DNA from: a bacterium
GTDB taxonomy: Bacteria > Cyanobacteriota > Vampirovibrionia > Gastranaerophilales > Gastranaerophilaceae
Assembly: GCA_017467605.1 (NCBI GenBank)
Contig: JAFUSQ010000036.1
Coordinates: forward strand, 1-64,000
Reading direction: 5' to 3'
DNA length: 64,000 nt
Under the pieces are notes generated by a model. That model searched no databases. It was not told where the DNA came from and saw only the letters and a list, made by a program, of their open reading frames with translations. Both the position numbers and the translations under genes were made by a program. Below, piece by piece: positions 12,872 to 20,351 of this stretch; within the stretch, counting starts at the first letter, position 1; each line of letters starts with the position of its first letter.

Positions 12872-14629
12872 TCATTTTGATGCATATACCCTTAAATCAT
12901 TAACAATAAGTTCTGGTGTAAGATGGTAGCGTTGATAAAGTTCTTCAATCGGAGTTCTGTCGGTAAATTCTTTTTTGCTTCCGTAATTTAGTACTTTCAT
13001 ATCAGAATTTCCGTAGAATCTTGTTATTTTTTCTCCAAAACCGCCGTTCAACATTCCATCTTCAAGAGTAATTACTGTTTCGTGATCTTTTTTCAAATTT
13101 TCAAGTAATTCTTTGTCAATTCCTGTAATGAATCTTGGGTTAATAAGTGTTGCATCAATTCCTAATTTTGATTTAATTTCTTCTTTAACTTGTTTTCCAA
13201 GCTCGAAAAATCCGCCTAATGCTATAATCGCAATCTTTTCACCTTTATATTCAACTTTAAATTTGTTTAATTGAGAATAGTCGGTTGTATCTTTAATTCC
13301 TGTTGAATTTACAGTACCCATAGGAACTCTTATTGCAACAGGGTGCTCGTTTTGAGAATGGGCGTATTCAAGCATTGCAAGATATTCTTCTTTGCTTGTC
13401 GGTGCAAGATAAACCATATTAGGAATATTGCTGATTAATGGAATATCAAAAGAACAAAGGTGAGTTGCATCAGCTCCTGAAATTCCTCCCCAATATACAA
13501 GCATTGTTATTGGGGAATTATTTAAACATAAATCTTGCGACATTTGGTCATAAGTTCTTTGAATAAATGAACTCATCACGGCAAAAATCGGTTTTGCACC
13601 GTTTTTTGCAAGTCCTGAGGAATAAGCTGCTGCATGTTCTTCTGCAATACCAACATCTGTGTAATTTTTCCCTAAAAGTTCTCTGTAATTTTTGTCAAAT
13701 CCGAAAACTCCGGGAGTTCCCGCATTAACAACACAAGTCGCAGGATTTTCTTTAACTTTATTTAAAATAAAATCTTTTGTGATAGATTCATAGCATTCTC
13801 CGCTAATTCGTGGCGCAATTTCTTTGTTATCAAGAGTCCCCGGCATAATCCAGTGAAAAGCTTCCTTGTTTTCAACCGCTTGAGTTAATCCATGGCCTTT
13901 TTCAGTGTGAATATGAACAATTGTCGGGCAAGCTGCATCTTTAACTGTTTTAAATGCCGTAATCAGATCTGCTATATTGTTTCCGTTTTCTACATAACTA
14001 TATTTGAATCCTAAAGCTTTGAAGAAATTATTTTCAGCTAAACCGTTAGTTTCACGTAACAATCTTAAATTATCATAAATTCCGCCATGGTTTTCTGCAA
14101 TAGACATATCATTATCATTAACAACGATAATAATATTTCCTCCAAGCACAGATGCATTGTCAAGGCCTTCTAAAGCTTCTCCGCCTGATAATGAACCATC
14201 ACCGATTAATGCTATAACGTTTCCTTTTTCGCCTTTCAAATCTCTTGCTTTTGCAACACCAGTTGCAAGACTTACAGAAGTTGAAGTGTGTCCGACTTTG
14301 AATAAATCGTGTTCGCTTTCTTCCGGAGCAGTATAGCCCGTATACTTCAAATACAAATCAGGATTTGTAAATCCTTCTTTACGTCCGGTTAAAATCTTAT
14401 GCGGATAACATTGGTGCGAAACATCAAATATAATCTTATCAACAGGAGAATTAAATACATAATGAAGAGCAATAGTTGCTTCTAAAATCCCTAAGTTCGG
14501 AGCCATATGCCCGCCTGTTGTGTTTACTTTTTTTATTATAAGTTCACGCATCTCATCTGCCAGTGCGTTCATTTCTTCAATTGATAATTTTTTTAAATCA
14601 TACGGATTGTTAACTTTATCTAAAATCAT
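12872..14629 (-). CDS. dxs: 1-deoxy-D-xylulose-5-phosphate synthase (divergent DXS)
   Basis: Thiamine-diphosphate enzyme joining pyruvate and glyceraldehyde 3-phosphate, the first step of the MEP isoprenoid pathway. The ThDP motif GDGSLSGGEALEGLDN...VVNDNDMS and the catalytic region HQCYPHKILTGR are visible; transketolase central and C-terminal domains follow (GIAEEHAAAYSSGLAKNG). At 585 residues it is shorter than classical DXS (about 620), and the usual GGLSGF segment after GRK/GRR is replaced by EGFTNPDLYLKYTGYTAPEE, placing it in a divergent branch. Start 14629 has AGGAGA about 8 nt upstream, just after the DtxR stop. Last gene of its operon. Confidence 0.85.
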   Translation of the reverse strand: MILDKVNNPYDLKKLSIEEMNALADEMRELIIKKVNTTGGHMAPNLGILEATIALHYVFNSPVDKIIFDVSHQCYPHKILTGRKEGFTNPDLYLKYTGYTAPEESEHDLFKVGHTSTSVSLATGVAKARDLKGEKGNVIALIGDGSLSGGEALEGLDNASVLGGNIIIVVNDNDMSIAENHGGIYDNLRLLRETNGLAENNFFKALGFKYSYVENGNNIADLITAFKTVKDAACPTIVHIHTEKGHGLTQAVENKEAFHWIMPGTLDNKEIAPRISGECYESITKDFILNKVKENPATCVVNAGTPGVFGFDKNYRELLGKNYTDVGIAEEHAAAYSSGLAKNGAKPIFAVMSSFIQRTYDQMSQDLCLNNSPITMLVYWGGISGADATHLCSFDIPLISNIPNMVYLAPTSKEEYLAMLEYAHSQNEHPVAIRVPMGTVNSTGIKDTTDYSQLNKFKVEYKGEKIAIIALGGFFELGKQVKEEIKSKLGIDATLINPRFITGIDKELLENLKKDHETVITLEDGMLNGGFGEKITRFYGNSDMKVLNYGSKKEFTDRTPIEELYQRYHLTPELIVNDLRVYASK

Positions 14630-14639
14630 TTTTCTCTCC

Positions 14640-15182
14640 TTATTTTTTGTTTTTACAAGCACTACAACAATTTGAATTGTCAAAATTTTCACCTAAAGCC
14701 ATGCAAGAATTGCATTTTTTAGGCATTTCCCCATTTTTTGAATAATATTTGTAACTTTTTACCCATTTAGGTTCTTTGCAGGAACATTTTTCCATAAACG
14801 ATAAAAATTTTACAAATTTTTCCAACACATCTTCCGGCATGGAATATTCAATTTCGTTGGCGGATTTGTTTATTTTCTTACTGTCCACCATTAAAACTTT
14901 TTCTAAAAAATTTGAAATTATTTTATGACGATTAATTTTTGTTTGGGCTTGTTCAATTCCTTTTTGAGTAATGGTTATTATTCCGTAGGGAACGTAATTT
15001 ATAAATCCTTTTTTAGCCAGTGTTTTTACGGCATCAGAAGTAGAAGGACCGCCGATTTTGAGGTAATTTGATACATCTTTAACTCTTGCAGCCTGATTTT
15101 GTTTTACAATTTCGTATATTGCAAGTAAGTATTTTTCAAGGCTTTCAGTTAATTCTCCATTCATAAGGAAATTATATTTCAT
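14640..15182 (-). CDS. DtxR/MntR-family metal-dependent regulator with Cys-rich tail
   Basis: N-terminal winged helix (about 7-70; LTESLEKYLLAIYEI, then AARVKDVSNYLKI, a DtxR signature) and a dimerisation/metal-binding helix region (about 75-125; HKIISNFLEKVLMVD). The C-terminal 60 residues are cysteine-rich (CSC, CNSC, NCCSAC), unlike classical DtxR and suited to Zn or Fe-S binding. It probably represses genes in response to Fe, Mn or another metal. Start could be 15182 or 15164; neither has a clear Shine-Dalgarno. It sits 9 bp after the membrane-protein gene and 10 bp before dxs, so the three are one operon. Confidence 0.8.
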   Translation of the reverse strand: MKYNFLMNGELTESLEKYLLAIYEIVKQNQAARVKDVSNYLKIGGPSTSDAVKTLAKKGFINYVPYGIITITQKGIEQAQTKINRHKIISNFLEKVLMVDSKKINKSANEIEYSMPEDVLEKFVKFLSFMEKCSCKEPKWVKSYKYYSKNGEMPKKCNSCMALGENFDNSNCCSACKNKK

Positions 15183-15191
15183 TGTGTTTTT

Positions 15192-16760
15192 TTATGCAAT
15201 ATTATTTAAAAATTTTTCAAATGATATGTTTTTAGTATTCTTTTCACTGTTTAATATTTGAACAGGATAATTTTTCTGTTTGCTGCGTGTCATTATGATG
15301 TTTATCATTGGTAATACGATTCCGAGAGCAACCAGAGAATATGCAAGTCCTGCAGCATGTGCCAAGTTAAGCTTCCACATATTTTTCTTTGCAAATTCAC
15401 TTCCTTTTGCGGCAATTTCATTGTGAGATTTTAAAGAGATTTCGTTTAGCCAGTATTTAATTCCTTTTCCTTCACTTGAAATATTAAACAGATTTTCTCT
15501 TTTTGTATCCAGCAAATTTGCAACACCTTTGGCCGCAAAACCTCCAAAAACAAGCCAATTCAGGAATCCGAAATAATCTCTGAAAGTTGTTTCTCTAAGT
15601 TCGGTATCGTTATCGGAAGCCATGAATCTCCCGATAAGGGTTGATGCATATACGGTTTTAATTGCGTTTCCGCTTGTTACCGGGCCTGTAAGTTCGATTT
15701 TTTTGATGAAATCTTTTGGAGATTTAACTTTCATTACTGCAATTGTCATTGCAGCCATTCCGATACTTGCTAAGATTTTTTTTGCTAAAAACATATTGCC
15801 TGTATCTTTTGAAGATTTTTTATTCTTTATGTTTGCCTGATAATTTACATCTCCGACAAAACCTTTGGTGCCGGTTCGTTTTTCTGTAATTTTGCGGTTT
15901 ATGTATTGATTTGAAAGCCCGAGAGTTGAAGCAAGCGCGATTGCTCCAAGACTTTTGATTTTGTTAATTTGTATAATTTTTTCAATTGCATCTTTTGTAT
16001 TTACATCTTTATTTGTAAATACGTCTCTGCCAAGATCAATCATATCTCTCAAAAGATTGCTCATTGAAGTTGATAAATTTTCTCCGTTTGTAATTTTGCC
16101 GGCTTTCAGAGAATTTGTAAGTCGAACTTCCAAAATTTGTTGAAGCTTTTCTCTATCTGACTTTGAGACGGATTTATCATTGATAAGTTTGTTTATTAAA
16201 GAAATAATTGATTTCTTATCTTTTAATTTTGTATGAATGTTTTCAAATTCTTTGTTGTCCCATAAAATTTTATTCCATCTTTTTTCGTCGACCCAATCAA
16301 TTTTATCCCAGTCTATTTCTGAAAATTTATTTATATTTTTTCCGTCTCGTCCGCTTATATTATTAAGAACATTTTCAATATATTGGTTTATATTGGAGCT
16401 TTTTTTATTCATTTTTACTAAAAAATCCAAACTATCATTTGAAAACCATGAATTTGGATTTATTTTTATTTCAGGTTTTATTAATTTTGCTCCTAATTTA
16501 GCAATCCCTTTTGCAAAATAACTTGCAGAAAGGCAGACAATGAGTGTTCCGGTGAATTCTCTAAAAAATGTTTCAGCCCCGGAATATTTATTTCTTTTCT
16601 TTGTATCAATATAAGTTCGCGGTGTAACCATTGCTGCAAGGTCTATTCCAACTGCGTTTGCCATAGGGTTAGTATCAAGTGTTCTCAATCCTGAGGTTAA
16701 AAATCCGTCGAGTGGTCCTCTGAAACTTGGGGTATATCGTCTGTCATCTATTGTAAGCAT
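15192..16760 (-). CDS. Orphan polytopic membrane protein
   Basis: No family is recognised. 522 residues with about five hydrophobic segments: TLIVCLSASYFAKGIAKLG (about 72-92), SLGAIALASTLGLS (about 272-286), ILASIGMAAMTIAVM (about 332-346), FGFLNWLVFGGFAAKGVANL (about 393-412) and AHAAGLAYSLVALGIVLPMI (about 472-491). A charged helical region (about 110-260) separates the first two. Start 16760 has AAGGAGA upstream. It is the first gene of the operon with the DtxR regulator and DXS and lies directly behind a probable attenuator, so its level may follow cysteine or charged tRNA-Cys supply. Transport of a metal or cysteine-derived compound is only a guess. Confidence 0.7.
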   Translation of the reverse strand: MLTIDDRRYTPSFRGPLDGFLTSGLRTLDTNPMANAVGIDLAAMVTPRTYIDTKKRNKYSGAETFFREFTGTLIVCLSASYFAKGIAKLGAKLIKPEIKINPNSWFSNDSLDFLVKMNKKSSNINQYIENVLNNISGRDGKNINKFSEIDWDKIDWVDEKRWNKILWDNKEFENIHTKLKDKKSIISLINKLINDKSVSKSDREKLQQILEVRLTNSLKAGKITNGENLSTSMSNLLRDMIDLGRDVFTNKDVNTKDAIEKIIQINKIKSLGAIALASTLGLSNQYINRKITEKRTGTKGFVGDVNYQANIKNKKSSKDTGNMFLAKKILASIGMAAMTIAVMKVKSPKDFIKKIELTGPVTSGNAIKTVYASTLIGRFMASDNDTELRETTFRDYFGFLNWLVFGGFAAKGVANLLDTKRENLFNISSEGKGIKYWLNEISLKSHNEIAAKGSEFAKKNMWKLNLAHAAGLAYSLVALGIVLPMINIIMTRSKQKNYPVQILNSEKNTKNISFEKFLNNIA

Positions 16761-16780: not shown

Positions 16781-16819
16781 TAAAAAAATAAGTTCCCGAG
16801 ATTTAATCGGGAACTTATT
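16781..16819 (-). terminator. Intrinsic terminator/attenuator in the 5' leader
   Basis: Minus strand: AATAAGTTCCCGA pairs perfectly over 13 bp with TCGGGAACTTATT around a 7-nt loop, followed at once by a T run. It lies about 20 nt before the start codon of the membrane-protein gene and 25 nt after the stop of a short upstream frame. A terminator in that place must be read through for the operon to be expressed. Confidence 0.8.
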
Positions 16820-16844
16820 GAAATATTAGTGTAGTAAAATTATT

Positions 16845-16922
16845 CTATTCAAAACTAATAATGTAAGTCCCGCTGCGAGCCTTACAACAACAAGTATTAT
16901 ATTTTTCAAATAGTTTTATCAT
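16845..16922 (-). CDS. Putative leader peptide with three consecutive Cys codons
   Basis: A 25-codon frame: begins MIKLFEKYNTCCCK and ends TYIISFE. AAAGGA stands 7 nt before the ATG. Codons 11-13 are TGT TGT TGT. The RNA right after them (TGTAAG...CTTACA, 16886-16862) can form a hairpin. Its 3' arm CGGGACTT can instead pair, with a one-base bulge, with AAGTTCCCG, the 5' arm of the terminator. This is the three-way arrangement of translation-controlled attenuators: stalling at Cys codons would free the anti-terminator. Similar poly-Cys leader peptides are known from actinobacterial sulfur genes. The peptide itself may have no other role. Confidence 0.65.
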   Translation of the reverse strand: MIKLFEKYNTCCCKARSGTYIISFE

Positions 16923-16942
16923 GAATTTTCCTTTGCAATTTT

Positions 16943-16971
16943 ATGATGACAAGAAGAAAAAATTTTGTCAA
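16943..16971 (-). promoter_or_regulatory. Promoter of the attenuated operon
   Basis: Minus strand: TTGACA (16971-16966), 17-nt spacer, CATCAT (16948-16943; four of six consensus bases). A start near 16936 would leave about 14 nt before the leader-peptide ATG. The -35 is perfect; the -10 is weak. Confidence 0.45.
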
Positions 16972-17073: not shown

Positions 17074-18141
17074 ATGAAAGTTTTAGTGGGATTGTCAGGC
17101 GGAGTTGATTCATCTGTGGCAGCTTTGATTTTAAAACAGCAAGGGTATGATGTAATCGGTGCAACAATGTCAATTTGGGGTAAAGACGGCATGGCATTAA
17201 AATCAGGTCATAAAAATGCATGTTATGGGCCTGACGAAAAAGAAGATATTGAGCAAGCCCGCAAAATCGCAGAACAAATAGGAATACCATATTATGTATT
17301 TAATTGTGTTGAGCAATATGAAAAAATCGTTTTAGAAAATTTTAAATCAGAATATATACAAGGCAGAACTCCAAATCCTTGCGTTTGGTGTAATGCTCTT
17401 GTGAAATTCGGCGTTCTTCCGCATATGGCAAAACTTAACGGTATAGATTTTGATAAATTTGCGACGGGTCATTATGCAAGAGTTGAAGAAGAAAACGGCA
17501 GATATCTTTTAAAACGCGCTATTGCTCCGAATAAAGATCAATCATATTTTCTTTACAGATTAAAGCAGGAACAATTATCAAATATAATTCTTCCTCTTGG
17601 GGGTTATACAAAAGATGAAATCAGAAAAATTGCACAAAATAACGGTTTGGAGGTTGCTCAAAAACCTGACAGTCAGGATTTTTATGATGGTGATTACAAT
17701 GAACTTTTAGGAATTGATGAAAAAGAAGGTAATATTGTTGATACACAAGGCAATATTTTGGGAAAACATAAAGGGATTTGGAATTATACCATAGGTCAGC
17801 GCAAAGGTATCGGTGTTTCTTCAACTGAACCGTTATATGTTCTGGAACTTCGTAAAAATACTAATGAAGTTGTTATTGGACCTGCTGATAAGACGTTCAA
17901 AAAATCTCTTACGGCAGTAAATTTGAATTGGATAGGAATTGAAAATTTATTAAAACCTATGAATGTGACTGCGAAAATTCGTTCAACTCAGCAGCCGGCA
18001 GAAGTAAAAATTATTCCGAACGGAGATAAGGTCATTGCTGAATTCGAACAATTACAAAAATCAATAGCTATAGGACAATCGGTAGTATTTTATGAGGGTG
18101 ATACTGTTCTTGGCGGGGGTGTGATTGATAGTGTTCAATAA
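17074..18141 (+). CDS. mnmA: tRNA-specific 2-thiouridylase MnmA
   Basis: ATP-dependent thiolation of U34 in tRNA Lys/Glu/Gln. PP-loop GLSGGVDSSVAALIL (6-20), catalytic region GRTPNPCVWCNALVKFG, FATGHYAR, DQSYFLYRL and IGQRKGIGV are all present; length 355 is usual. Odd: the second catalytic cysteine, normally in DSxxICF, is absent; the segment reads KPDSQDFYDG. The first site instead carries a CxxC pair (NPCVWC), so sulfur transfer would have to use this pair or a cluster. Start 17074 (AAAGGA upstream) is preferred over the in-frame ATG at 17017. Confidence 0.92.
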   Translation: MKVLVGLSGGVDSSVAALILKQQGYDVIGATMSIWGKDGMALKSGHKNACYGPDEKEDIEQARKIAEQIGIPYYVFNCVEQYEKIVLENFKSEYIQGRTPNPCVWCNALVKFGVLPHMAKLNGIDFDKFATGHYARVEEENGRYLLKRAIAPNKDQSYFLYRLKQEQLSNIILPLGGYTKDEIRKIAQNNGLEVAQKPDSQDFYDGDYNELLGIDEKEGNIVDTQGNILGKHKGIWNYTIGQRKGIGVSSTEPLYVLELRKNTNEVVIGPADKTFKKSLTAVNLNWIGIENLLKPMNVTAKIRSTQQPAEVKIIPNGDKVIAEFEQLQKSIAIGQSVVFYEGDTVLGGGVIDSVQ

Positions 18142-18228
18142 TTGAATAGTTAATTCTCCAAGTCGGGAGTTGTGAAATTTTTTCGGTGTTTGTAATAATA
18201 TGATGTATGTAAATAAAAGGAGTTATTT

Positions 18229-18636
18229 ATGAGCAGAAAATCATTAATTACAATCTTAGCTATTTTGGTTATCCCGGTAGTTGCATTTTGGGGTTTAACT
18301 TTTAACAAAGAAGATTCAACTGCTGCAGTTGCCGTTACGCAGATACAAAACACAGGCAAACCCCAAGTTATAAAATTTTCATCAACAATGTGTCTTGAAT
18401 GTAAAGAAGTAGAAAAAGTCTTTGAAGAACTTTTACCTCAATATAAAGACAAAATTACTTATACAGAAATTATTGTTGACAGCCGTAACGATATGAAAAA
18501 TAATTTAATTAAAAAATATAATGTTCAACTTGTTCCGACAGTAATAATGTTAAATTCTGACGGTACTCAAAATACTCGTATTGAAGGTGCAAGATCTAAA
18601 GAAGATTTTGAACAATGTATTAAAGGTTTGAAATAA
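18229..18636 (+). CDS. Membrane-anchored thioredoxin-like protein
   Basis: 135 residues: an N-terminal membrane anchor (about 5-26, LITILAILVIPVVAFWGLTF), then a thioredoxin fold with redox pair CLEC (about 55-58) and cis-Pro loop LVPTVIML. It would face the outside of the cytoplasmic membrane. The stop overlaps the start of a CcdA-like gene by one base, so this is a thiol-reducing couple in which CcdA passes electrons to the thioredoxin. Substrates are unknown; cytochrome c maturation genes are not adjacent. Shine-Dalgarno AAAGGAG upstream. Confidence 0.85.
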   Translation: MSRKSLITILAILVIPVVAFWGLTFNKEDSTAAVAVTQIQNTGKPQVIKFSSTMCLECKEVEKVFEELLPQYKDKITYTEIIVDSRNDMKNNLIKKYNVQLVPTVIMLNSDGTQNTRIEGARSKEDFEQCIKGLK

Positions 18637-19328
18637 TGGAGAGTTTAACTCAGATTTTTACAACACAATCAAGTGTTTATATTTTGCTTGGAGCATCATT
18701 TTTAGGCGGATTGATATCTTCTGTTTCTCCTTGTTCTTTGTCAATGCTTCCGTTGATTATAGGATATATCGGCGGGTATTCAGATTCAAAACCTCTAAAA
18801 ACTCTTTTGCAAATGATAATTTTTGTCTTGGGTACAGGGGTTGTTTTTTCAATAATTGGAATAATCTGTGCATTGACAGGCAGGGCATTTGTCGGAAATC
18901 CTTATTTTGCCTTGATTGTTGCTTCAATTATTTTGATTATGGGGCTGAAAATTTTAGAGGTTATCGATTTTGAACTTCCTGTTATGATTAAAGAAATTCC
19001 GCAAAATAATTTTAATAATGATTTAATTTATCCTTTTGTATTGGGTGCGGTTTTTGCGATAATAGGAACCCCATGTTCAACCCCAATTTTGGCAGGTATA
19101 ATGGGTTTTGCTTCAATTTCGGCAAATATCCCTCAAGCAGTTTTGATGTTGTTTTTATTTTCAATAGGTCAAGGGTTGATATTGATTCTTGCGGGCTTTA
19201 TCACCTCTAAAATAAAGACGAGCGAAAATTTTTATAAAGCCTCTGAAACTATTATGAAAATTAGCGGAGTCTTGTTGATTTTGGTTGCGTTATTTATATA
19301 CTATAAAATGTTTAGCGCGGTAATTTAA
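18636..19328 (+). CDS. CcdA/DsbD-like thiol-disulfide transporter
   Basis: A 230-residue membrane protein with six predicted helices. Two conserved cysteine motifs lie in the membrane: SPCSLSMLPLIIGYI (helix 1) and GTPCSTPILAGIMG (helix 4), as in CcdA. It carries reducing equivalents from cytoplasmic thioredoxin to the exported thioredoxin encoded just upstream (ATGA-type one-base overlap). It converges on the pilin gene with no gap. Confidence 0.88.
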   Translation: MESLTQIFTTQSSVYILLGASFLGGLISSVSPCSLSMLPLIIGYIGGYSDSKPLKTLLQMIIFVLGTGVVFSIIGIICALTGRAFVGNPYFALIVASIILIMGLKILEVIDFELPVMIKEIPQNNFNNDLIYPFVLGAVFAIIGTPCSTPILAGIMGFASISANIPQAVLMLFLFSIGQGLILILAGFITSKIKTSENFYKASETIMKISGVLLILVALFIYYKMFSAVI

Positions 19329-20351
19329 TTACCAAGGGTAATCTTTTTCAATTCTCCAGCCCGCGCGTCTGATTTTTTCGGCACACGTATAACCATAACC
19401 GTTTTTAGAACAGTCTGAGTTCAGCTCATCATCTGTCATTCCATATCCATAAAAACTTACTCTAGCCCCAAAATTATCTTCTATTCTTACAAATCTAAAC
19501 AAATCTCGTCCGTATTTATTTGGTAATTCACCGCCATTTATGTCTATAAAAATATCATTCTGTTTCTGAACAATATCTCCACCACCTGTCATAATAATAT
19601 ATACCATACCATCGTGTGTATAAAATGCAGTCCTTAAATTATTTAGTACAACATGAAGCCCATTTCTTGTTCCATTTGCATTTTTATAAGGTTGTGCATT
19701 GTTGTAACCGCATTTTTGGTAGGTATTACAATATTGAAGCATTTTAATATACGGCTGCCAATATTTTTTAAAATACGCTTCACTTCCCATATCAAATGAA
19801 TTTTCAGGTTCACCCTGTTCGTCAAATGATAGTCTATAAGCCTGATTTATTACTGAAATTCCTTTTTGTAATTTAGTAACAGTTGCACGTTTTTGATGTT
19901 CTTGGATTAAGTTTGGAATAGTCATTGCACTGACAACTCCGATTATGCCGATGGTTATCAAGACTTCAGCGAGCGTAAACCCCGCGGAGCGCAGTAGTCG
20001 TGGAGTCTTGCCAAAGTTAGCAGCAGAATACCCACTCTCTTGCCCGACTCGCATTAAACAGGTATCGCTCACGCTTTCACCTTCTGCTCGTCGGGCGTTC
20101 CGGTGAGGAGTAAAGGCTGCTTTTTTAAAGTGGATAAGTTGATAAGTAGATGAGTTGATAAGTTCTTTACGGTTATTATTCCCTCTGTCATTGCGAGGAG
20201 TGAAGCAACGTGGCAATCCAAACTGCCCCCTCACCCTTACCCTCTCCCGTATGGCGAGGAAATTACATTTACCCCTGTCATGCTGTACTTGCTTCAGGGT
20301 CTGCTTAATCTCTGATTTTAAATTCTTATTATTATAAAAAATATGAACCAT
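19329..20351 (-). CDS. Type IV pilin-like protein with repeat-expanded leader (pilin 1)
   Basis: The mature part is a pilin/pseudopilin: cleavage motif SAGFTLAEVLITIGIIGVV at 122-140, helix, then a Cys-containing globular domain ending DYPW. The frame is open for 123 residues before the motif, far longer than any working prepilin leader. That extension translates REP-like modules and a short direct repeat (about 20117-20165). It contains KKAAFT, which looks like the old leader now cut off by an insert. A strong promoter places the transcript start at the ATG at 20351. An internal ATG at 20054 would give a 24-residue leader but has no Shine-Dalgarno. Which start is used is unresolved. It is divergent from an XRE regulator. 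Confidence 0.7.
   Translation of the reverse strand: MVHIFYNNKNLKSEIKQTLKQVQHDRGKCNFLAIRERVRVRGQFGLPRCFTPRNDRGNNNRKELINSSTYQLIHFKKAAFTPHRNARRAEGESVSDTCLMRVGQESGYSAANFGKTPRLLRSAGFTLAEVLITIGIIGVVSAMTIPNLIQEHQKRATVTKLQKGISVINQAYRLSFDEQGEPENSFDMGSEAYFKKYWQPYIKMLQYCNTYQKCGYNNAQPYKNANGTRNGLHVVLNNLRTAFYTHDGMVYIIMTGGGDIVQKQNDIFIDINGGELPNKYGRDLFRFVRIEDNFGARVSFYGYGMTDDELNSDCSKNGYGYTCAEKIRRAGWRIEKDYPW
19968..20033 (-). repeat. Leader cassette shared with pilin 3, copy 1
   Basis: 66 bp that match 37541-37606 with about eight differences. On the minus strand it encodes YSAANFGKTPRLLRSAGFTL-like residues directly before the pilin cleavage site, ending in TGCGCTCCGCGGGGTTTACG. Confidence 0.7.
20186..20305 (-). 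repeat. Composite REP-like unit inside the pilin 1 leader, copy 2
   Basis: Minus-strand order: A-like palindrome, C (ACGGGAGAGGGTAAG), GTGAGGGGGCAG, then D (GGATTGCCACG...CTCGCAATGAC). It matches the unit at 141-205 module for module. It lies in the open frame of pilin 1. Confidence 0.6.

Follow-up and report, generated by a model that had tools for sequence, protein, structure and literature searches.

The window, i.e., the whole 64,000-nucleotide stretch of Gastranaerophilaceae DNA that was analysed, carries on its minus strand a leader which can be read, with a probability of roughly 90 %, as a trp-type ribosome-mediated transcription attenuator of the downstream gene, designated MEM, predicted to be induced by a shortage of cysteine or, in most relatives, of serine. 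That this attenuator is an evolved device is close to certain; we infer that its leader is translated, that ribosomes stall on it, and that starvation is what induces the gene. It is also probable that a single attenuator family has exchanged the residue it senses between Cys and Ser at least twice with its RNA architecture and target family kept, some genomes containing both types, that the composition of the encoded protein avoids the sensed residue, and that MEM belongs to a new type of membrane protein made in response to Cys or Ser shortage. The Cys-to-Ser change and the protein composition matching it are the novel parts.

Elements of the leader in the window

The TTGACA sequence, the AAAGGA sequence, and the 25-codon ORF with three TGT codons described in the initial annotation are all present on the minus strand, with the minor correction that the −10 hexamer is weak. 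The promoter-like site (16943..16971) consists of TTGACA (16971-16966), a spacing of 17 nt, and the hexamer CATCAT preceded by TG; a TTGAC box is located at most 110 nt upstream in 96 of the 98 distinct leaders. The Shine-Dalgarno-like AAAGGA (16929..16934) lies 6 nt ahead of the ATG of the leader ORF (16845..16922; MIKLFEKYNTCCCKARSGTYIISFE), which has homologs in relatives, and the putative regulatory Cys codons TGT TGT TGT occupy positions 16884..16892. Arm 1, TGTAAG (16881..16886), overlaps the last of these codons, and five of the six pairs of the 1:2 helix have changed on both sides among relatives. Arm 2, CGGGACTTACA (16862..16872), has arm 1 or arm 3 as its partner: its core CGGGACTT spans 16872-16865, and arm 1 is complementary to the 3' part, CTTACA (16867-16862). 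Arms 3 (AATAAGTTCCCGA, 16807..16819) and 4 (TCGGGAACTTATT, 16787..16799), both identified by pairing and compensatory change, are the 5' and 3' arms of a 13-bp intrinsic terminator (16819-16787), which is followed by a T run (16782..16786) and lies approximately 20 nt ahead of the MEM start codon (ATG 16760). The 1:2 hairpin, the terminator with its T run, and the likeness of arm 2 to the terminator 3' arm, which enables arm 2 to pair with the terminator 5' arm, had likewise been pointed out before and were all recovered.

The window leader folds better than 200 of 200 shuffled sequences (z −3.2), and in a stretch of 381 nt, one terminator was found where 0.1 would be expected; chance is excluded because relatives keep the leader. 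No curated covariance model in Rfam matches it. A partial transcript ending before arm 4 folds as 2:3, and afterwards 1:2 and 3:4 are formed. The completed terminator is thermodynamically stronger than 2:3 in the window, and antitermination must therefore be decided during transcription.

In trp-type attenuators, a run of regulatory codons lies within a leader ORF, the RNA arms pair as 1:2, 2:3, and 3:4, and there is an intrinsic terminator. Judged by sequence, the leader of MEM combines a translatable ORF with a start codon, a ribosome-binding site, and a codon run, an intrinsic terminator 3:4 between this ORF and the first gene, and a mutually exclusive antiterminator 2:3, and its arm 1 lies on or directly next to the regulatory codons, where a stalled ribosome would mask it and leave arm 2 free. 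With charged Cys-tRNA available, the ribosome would pass the Cys codons and reach the stop codon close to arm 2; arm 2 would then be covered or paired with arm 1, the terminator 3:4 would form, and transcription would stop before MEM. If Cys-tRNA were in short supply, stalling on the Cys run would place the ribosome over arm 1; arm 2, left free, would then pair with arm 3, no terminator would form, and MEM would be transcribed. The same device with Ser codons, as found in a derived clade, should respond to serine.

Conservation and covariation among relatives

Relatives were sought in 45 genomes from the genus of the window and in named genomes, mostly Candidatus Gastranaerophilales or Melainabacteria MAGs. 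MEM homologs are present in most of the 45 genomes, and all 37 MEM genes read in the genus (at least 40 % identity) are preceded by a small ORF containing a homopolymer run, one of these runs being CRCC. At the named-genome MEM loci, whose genomes are partly shared with the genus set, a leader with a Cys or Ser run occurs in 79 of 80 cases. Strict runs are present in 77 of these 80 (CCC in 15, SSS in 62) against an expectation of about 1.2 from dinucleotide shuffles (0.04 for CCC and 1.18 for SSS), and homopolymer runs of most other residues stay near the shuffle expectation. The 98 distinct leader sequences comprise 68 with Ser and 30 with Cys. As the run codons are mixed (TGT/TGC for Cys; TCC/TCA/TCG/TCT/AGC/AGT for Ser), it is the residue that is kept and not one codon. 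Conservation of the run, one of the checks proposed in the initial annotation, was obtained, with Ser instead of Cys codons at the same place in most relatives.

The leader was found in several genera of the family and, with Cys runs in both cases, in G040 and G048, two genera that belong to another family. No leader was found with the distant MEM homologs in families f2-f4, nor with the tandem distant MEM paralogs of the window's own genome (G000:C62, L128 3470-6962; 23-29 % identity). Such a tandem pair is also present in G034, G062, and G001. Among the named-genome loci, only L156 has neither a recognisable run nor a terminator: its TTGACA box leads to the gene with no attenuator in between, a loss within the Ser clade. 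In L281, the run is reduced to CC, and the computed 2:3 pairing is weak in L161, L192, L197, L140, and L211. Many Ser runs are broken by Asn, Thr, or Cys (L143, L147, L162, L161, L174, and L199), giving forms such as SSSNSS, SSSNCS, TTSSSC, and SCSSSSS; these interruptions may modulate the response or be left over from the residue change.

Searching with the DNA of the leader only returned few matches because the arms diverge; those in G043, G040, and G045 and at a second place in G025 were rejected, as no leader is located there. A loose Cys pattern matched mostly unrelated sequence and was also dropped. A search of the genus for CCCCK or SSSSK yielded no second target among the loci examined, which cover part of the CCCCK matches: nearly all noncoding matches there are MEM leaders.

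In an alignment of 59 leaders, arm 1 lies at the last run codon and the Lys codon next to it, and its partner is the 3' half of arm 2. Arm 2 itself (CGGGACTT and variants) also pairs with arm 3, which in turn forms a helix with arm 4. Helices 1:2 and 3:4 are paired in 89.5 % of the cells, with 13 of 14 pairs changed on both sides and 68 double-change cells vs 21.0 after shuffling; for the terminator 3:4 taken separately, 97 % of the cells are paired and double changes occur in all eight pairs. Antiterminator 2:3 is paired in 95.3 % of the cells, with 27 double-change cells vs 5.7 after shuffling, and the 2:3 duplex has a median z of −3.5 over 116 leaders. Sliding the partner by one column lowers the pairing of 1:2 and 3:4 to 50-56 % and destroys that of 2:3 likewise. 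Variants of arms 2 and 3 change together, as in CGGAACTT/AAGTTCCG, AAGAACTT/AAGTTCTT, CGAGACTT/AAGTCTCG, and TGCGGGGC/GCCTCGC. Compensatory changes, which the initial annotation had named as a check on arms 1-4, were consequently obtained in all three mutually exclusive helices and, together with the conservation of the run, strongly support its reading of the leader as a Cys-codon attenuator.

The distance from the last run codon to arm 2 has a median of 13 nt, and the stop codon is located at a median of 8.5 nt beyond arm 2. Given the known ribosome footprint, a ribosome on the run would be expected to mask just arm 1 and, at the stop codon, to cover part of arm 2.

Putative sensed residue and target protein

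When 99 MEM proteins are placed in a tree, the Cys or Ser label of the leader needs two changes, which the starred branches force; the mean for shuffled labels is 26.5, and none of 500 shuffles was as low. The deep lineages, including that of the window, have Cys leaders, and one large clade of 64 has Ser leaders. L144 has a Ser leader inside a Cys group, separate from this large clade. The position of the outgroup, on long branches, and the presence of Cys leaders in the other family make Cys to Ser the likely direction of change. One Cys-type and one Ser-type copy occur side by side in the MAGs RUG14285, RUG13389, and RGIG4827 and in the genus genome G023.

The composition of MEM follows the residue of its leader. 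Cys makes up 0.17 % of Cys-type MEM vs 0.58 % of Ser-type MEM and about 1.5 % of neighbouring ORFs; Cys-type proteins usually have no or one Cys, with none in 12 of 14 members of one clade and a single Cys in most others. Ser amounts to 7.3 % in Cys-type MEM vs 4.4 % in Ser-type MEM and about 6 % in the neighbours of both types. From Cys-type to Ser-type MEM, Cys shows the largest rise and Ser the largest fall of all residues. In four same-genome pairs, the Ser-type copy is lower in Ser all four times (pooled, 140 of 1974 residues in Cys-type vs 84 of 2012 in Ser-type copies; p 6e-5), and the Cys part of this comparison is not significant alone (p 0.23). The Ser depletion reflects few independent switches and largely one evolutionary event, with little effect in L144 and a low Ser content also in L211, which is of the Cys type. 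A low content of the cognate residue is a known mark of starvation-induced pathways, those of Ser and Cys included (PMC4209129). The composition of MEM fits what is expected if the protein is made during starvation for the sensed residue, and its avoidance of the cognate residue thereby gives indirect support for induction when the cognate aminoacyl-tRNA is scarce.

MEM itself (15192..16760, minus strand) is a probable membrane protein of 522 aa, for which hydropathy suggests some four membrane segments. It has no credible match in Pfam, NCBIfam, or PHROGs and no relative in the PDB by sequence. The AF2 model is confident (pLDDT 86.9, pTM 0.82), and no PDB fold matches it; the transporter names in the fold list had TM-scores below 0.25 and were not used. 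Targets of trp-type attenuators usually make, charge, or import the sensed amino acid, although this is not strictly defining. MEM is most likely a lineage-specific membrane protein made for Cys or Ser shortage and might serve, e.g., in uptake or scavenging. An F-(K/T/S/N)-G motif within the first 30 residues is seemingly shared by MEM and some neighbours of other families (window 15192-16760; L109, L095).

Downstream of MEM, the minus strand of the window encodes a DtxR/MntR-like regulator with a Cys-rich tail (14640..15182) and a DXS-like protein of the NF008968 subfamily (12872..14629; likely start ATG 14629). The unusual C-terminal tail of the regulator (CSCKEPKW...KKCNSC...CCSAC) is common to its homologs near other Cys-type MEM genes; these homologs lie before or after the leader. 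The gene mnmA points away from several Cys-type loci in divergent orientation, an arrangement that no Ser-type locus seen has. In the window, mnmA, which is divergent from the leader, is followed by genes for thioredoxin-like and CcdA-like proteins (17074-19328, plus strand), a thiol/sulfur neighbourhood; the synteny of mnmA is kept at the Cys-type loci L134, L135, L137, L139, L211, G001, and G010. Beyond these genes, on the minus strand (19329-20351), a protein with the type IV pilin-like segment GFTLAEVLITIGIIGVVSAMTIPNLI is encoded, with an odd N-terminal extension before this segment. The leader of MEM does not precede sulfur-assimilation or cysteine genes, and only about 80 nt separate cysE of the window's genome from its preceding ORF.

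Alternative readings and known systems

It is unlikely that the attenuator responds to a stall caused by the nascent peptide, or to a drug or stress that slows ribosomes, rather than to a shortage of charged tRNA. In its favour, clades keep some positions besides the run (MIKLF, SGLGGFSV, RNLL), but the family-wide feature is a homopolymer run with mixed synonymous codons in which a thiol side chain is exchanged for a hydroxyl one, the residues flanking it diverge freely, and arms 1 and 2 account for the common Lys codon and for the residues that come after the run; the target protein also avoids the cognate residue. The least probable of the alternatives is that the small ORF encodes a functional product, for instance a Cys-rich peptide that binds metal, next to hairpins that form an ordinary terminator. 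Some Cys leaders do contain at least six Cys residues (CCCCKSCC), and the Cys-rich DtxR-like regulator adjoins some of these, but most relatives have Ser in place of Cys, covariation of helices 1:2 and 2:3 extends across the ORF, and the stop position of the ORF shifts relative to arm 2. A Cys-rich functional peptide was dropped.

The remaining alternative concerns what is controlled. The initial annotation had assigned the attenuator to an operon of the membrane protein, DtxR, and DXS and had proposed a link between cysteine and isoprenoid synthesis. The tight spacing of the three genes in the window and the presence of DtxR beside several Cys-type loci would suit control of a three-gene operon for the sake of DXS or the metal regulator. 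Against this, DXS follows MEM in the window's genome alone among the loci examined, which leaves the isoprenoid link unsupported, DtxR adjoins only some Cys-type loci, before or after MEM, and no Ser-type locus, and MEM is the sole constant neighbour of the leader. An operon with such a purpose is accordingly improbable, slightly more so than the nascent-peptide or drug-induced stall; DXS and DtxR were dropped as conserved targets, and the conserved unit downstream of the leader is MEM alone.

The specificity of attenuators is usually regarded as tied to the pathway that they control. In the leaders of MEM, it appears that a conserved device has been re-tuned from one amino acid to the metabolic precursor of that amino acid, that the RNA arms co-evolved, and that the composition of the protein followed. 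Neither a serine leader-peptide attenuator nor an attenuator with a changed sensed residue was found described in the open-licence literature; a serine-responsive attenuator is predicted here, and codon swaps make this re-wiring of nutrient sensing directly testable. The leader also provides a first clue to the role of MEM, a membrane protein widespread in Gastranaerophilales of gut and rumen.

Actinobacterial leaders with Cys runs precede cys operons or sulfur genes and have no conserved terminator hairpins (PMC1262725), and short upstream ORFs with consecutive Cys codons act as cysteine-responsive attenuators in mycobacteria, as summarised in PMC9094748 (citing Canestrari et al. 2020). The leader of MEM shares with these the short upstream ORF and its consecutive Cys codons; it differs in having a full hairpin set, in its target, and in occurring in a different phylum. 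The uORFC-8-2 motif ahead of cysS in Rhodobacterales likewise joins two tandem Cys codons to a leader with a terminator (PMC8632094), but its target is cysteinyl-tRNA synthetase, its Cys codons are only two, and its lineage is another. In sinR of Bacillus subtilis, slow TCN Ser codons serve as a signal of serine shortage (PMC3862929). TCN codons dominate the Ser leaders of MEM too, whereas those of sinR are located within the regulator gene, with no leader peptide or attenuator. The design also resembles that of the ribosome-mediated transcription attenuators of the trp, his, leu, thr, and ilv type that control amino-acid operons, with which the MEM leader shares an ORF containing a codon run, the alternative pairings 1:2, 2:3, and 3:4, and a terminator before the first gene; it departs from them in that its target is no known biosynthetic enzyme or tRNA synthetase and in that the sensed residue differs between relatives.
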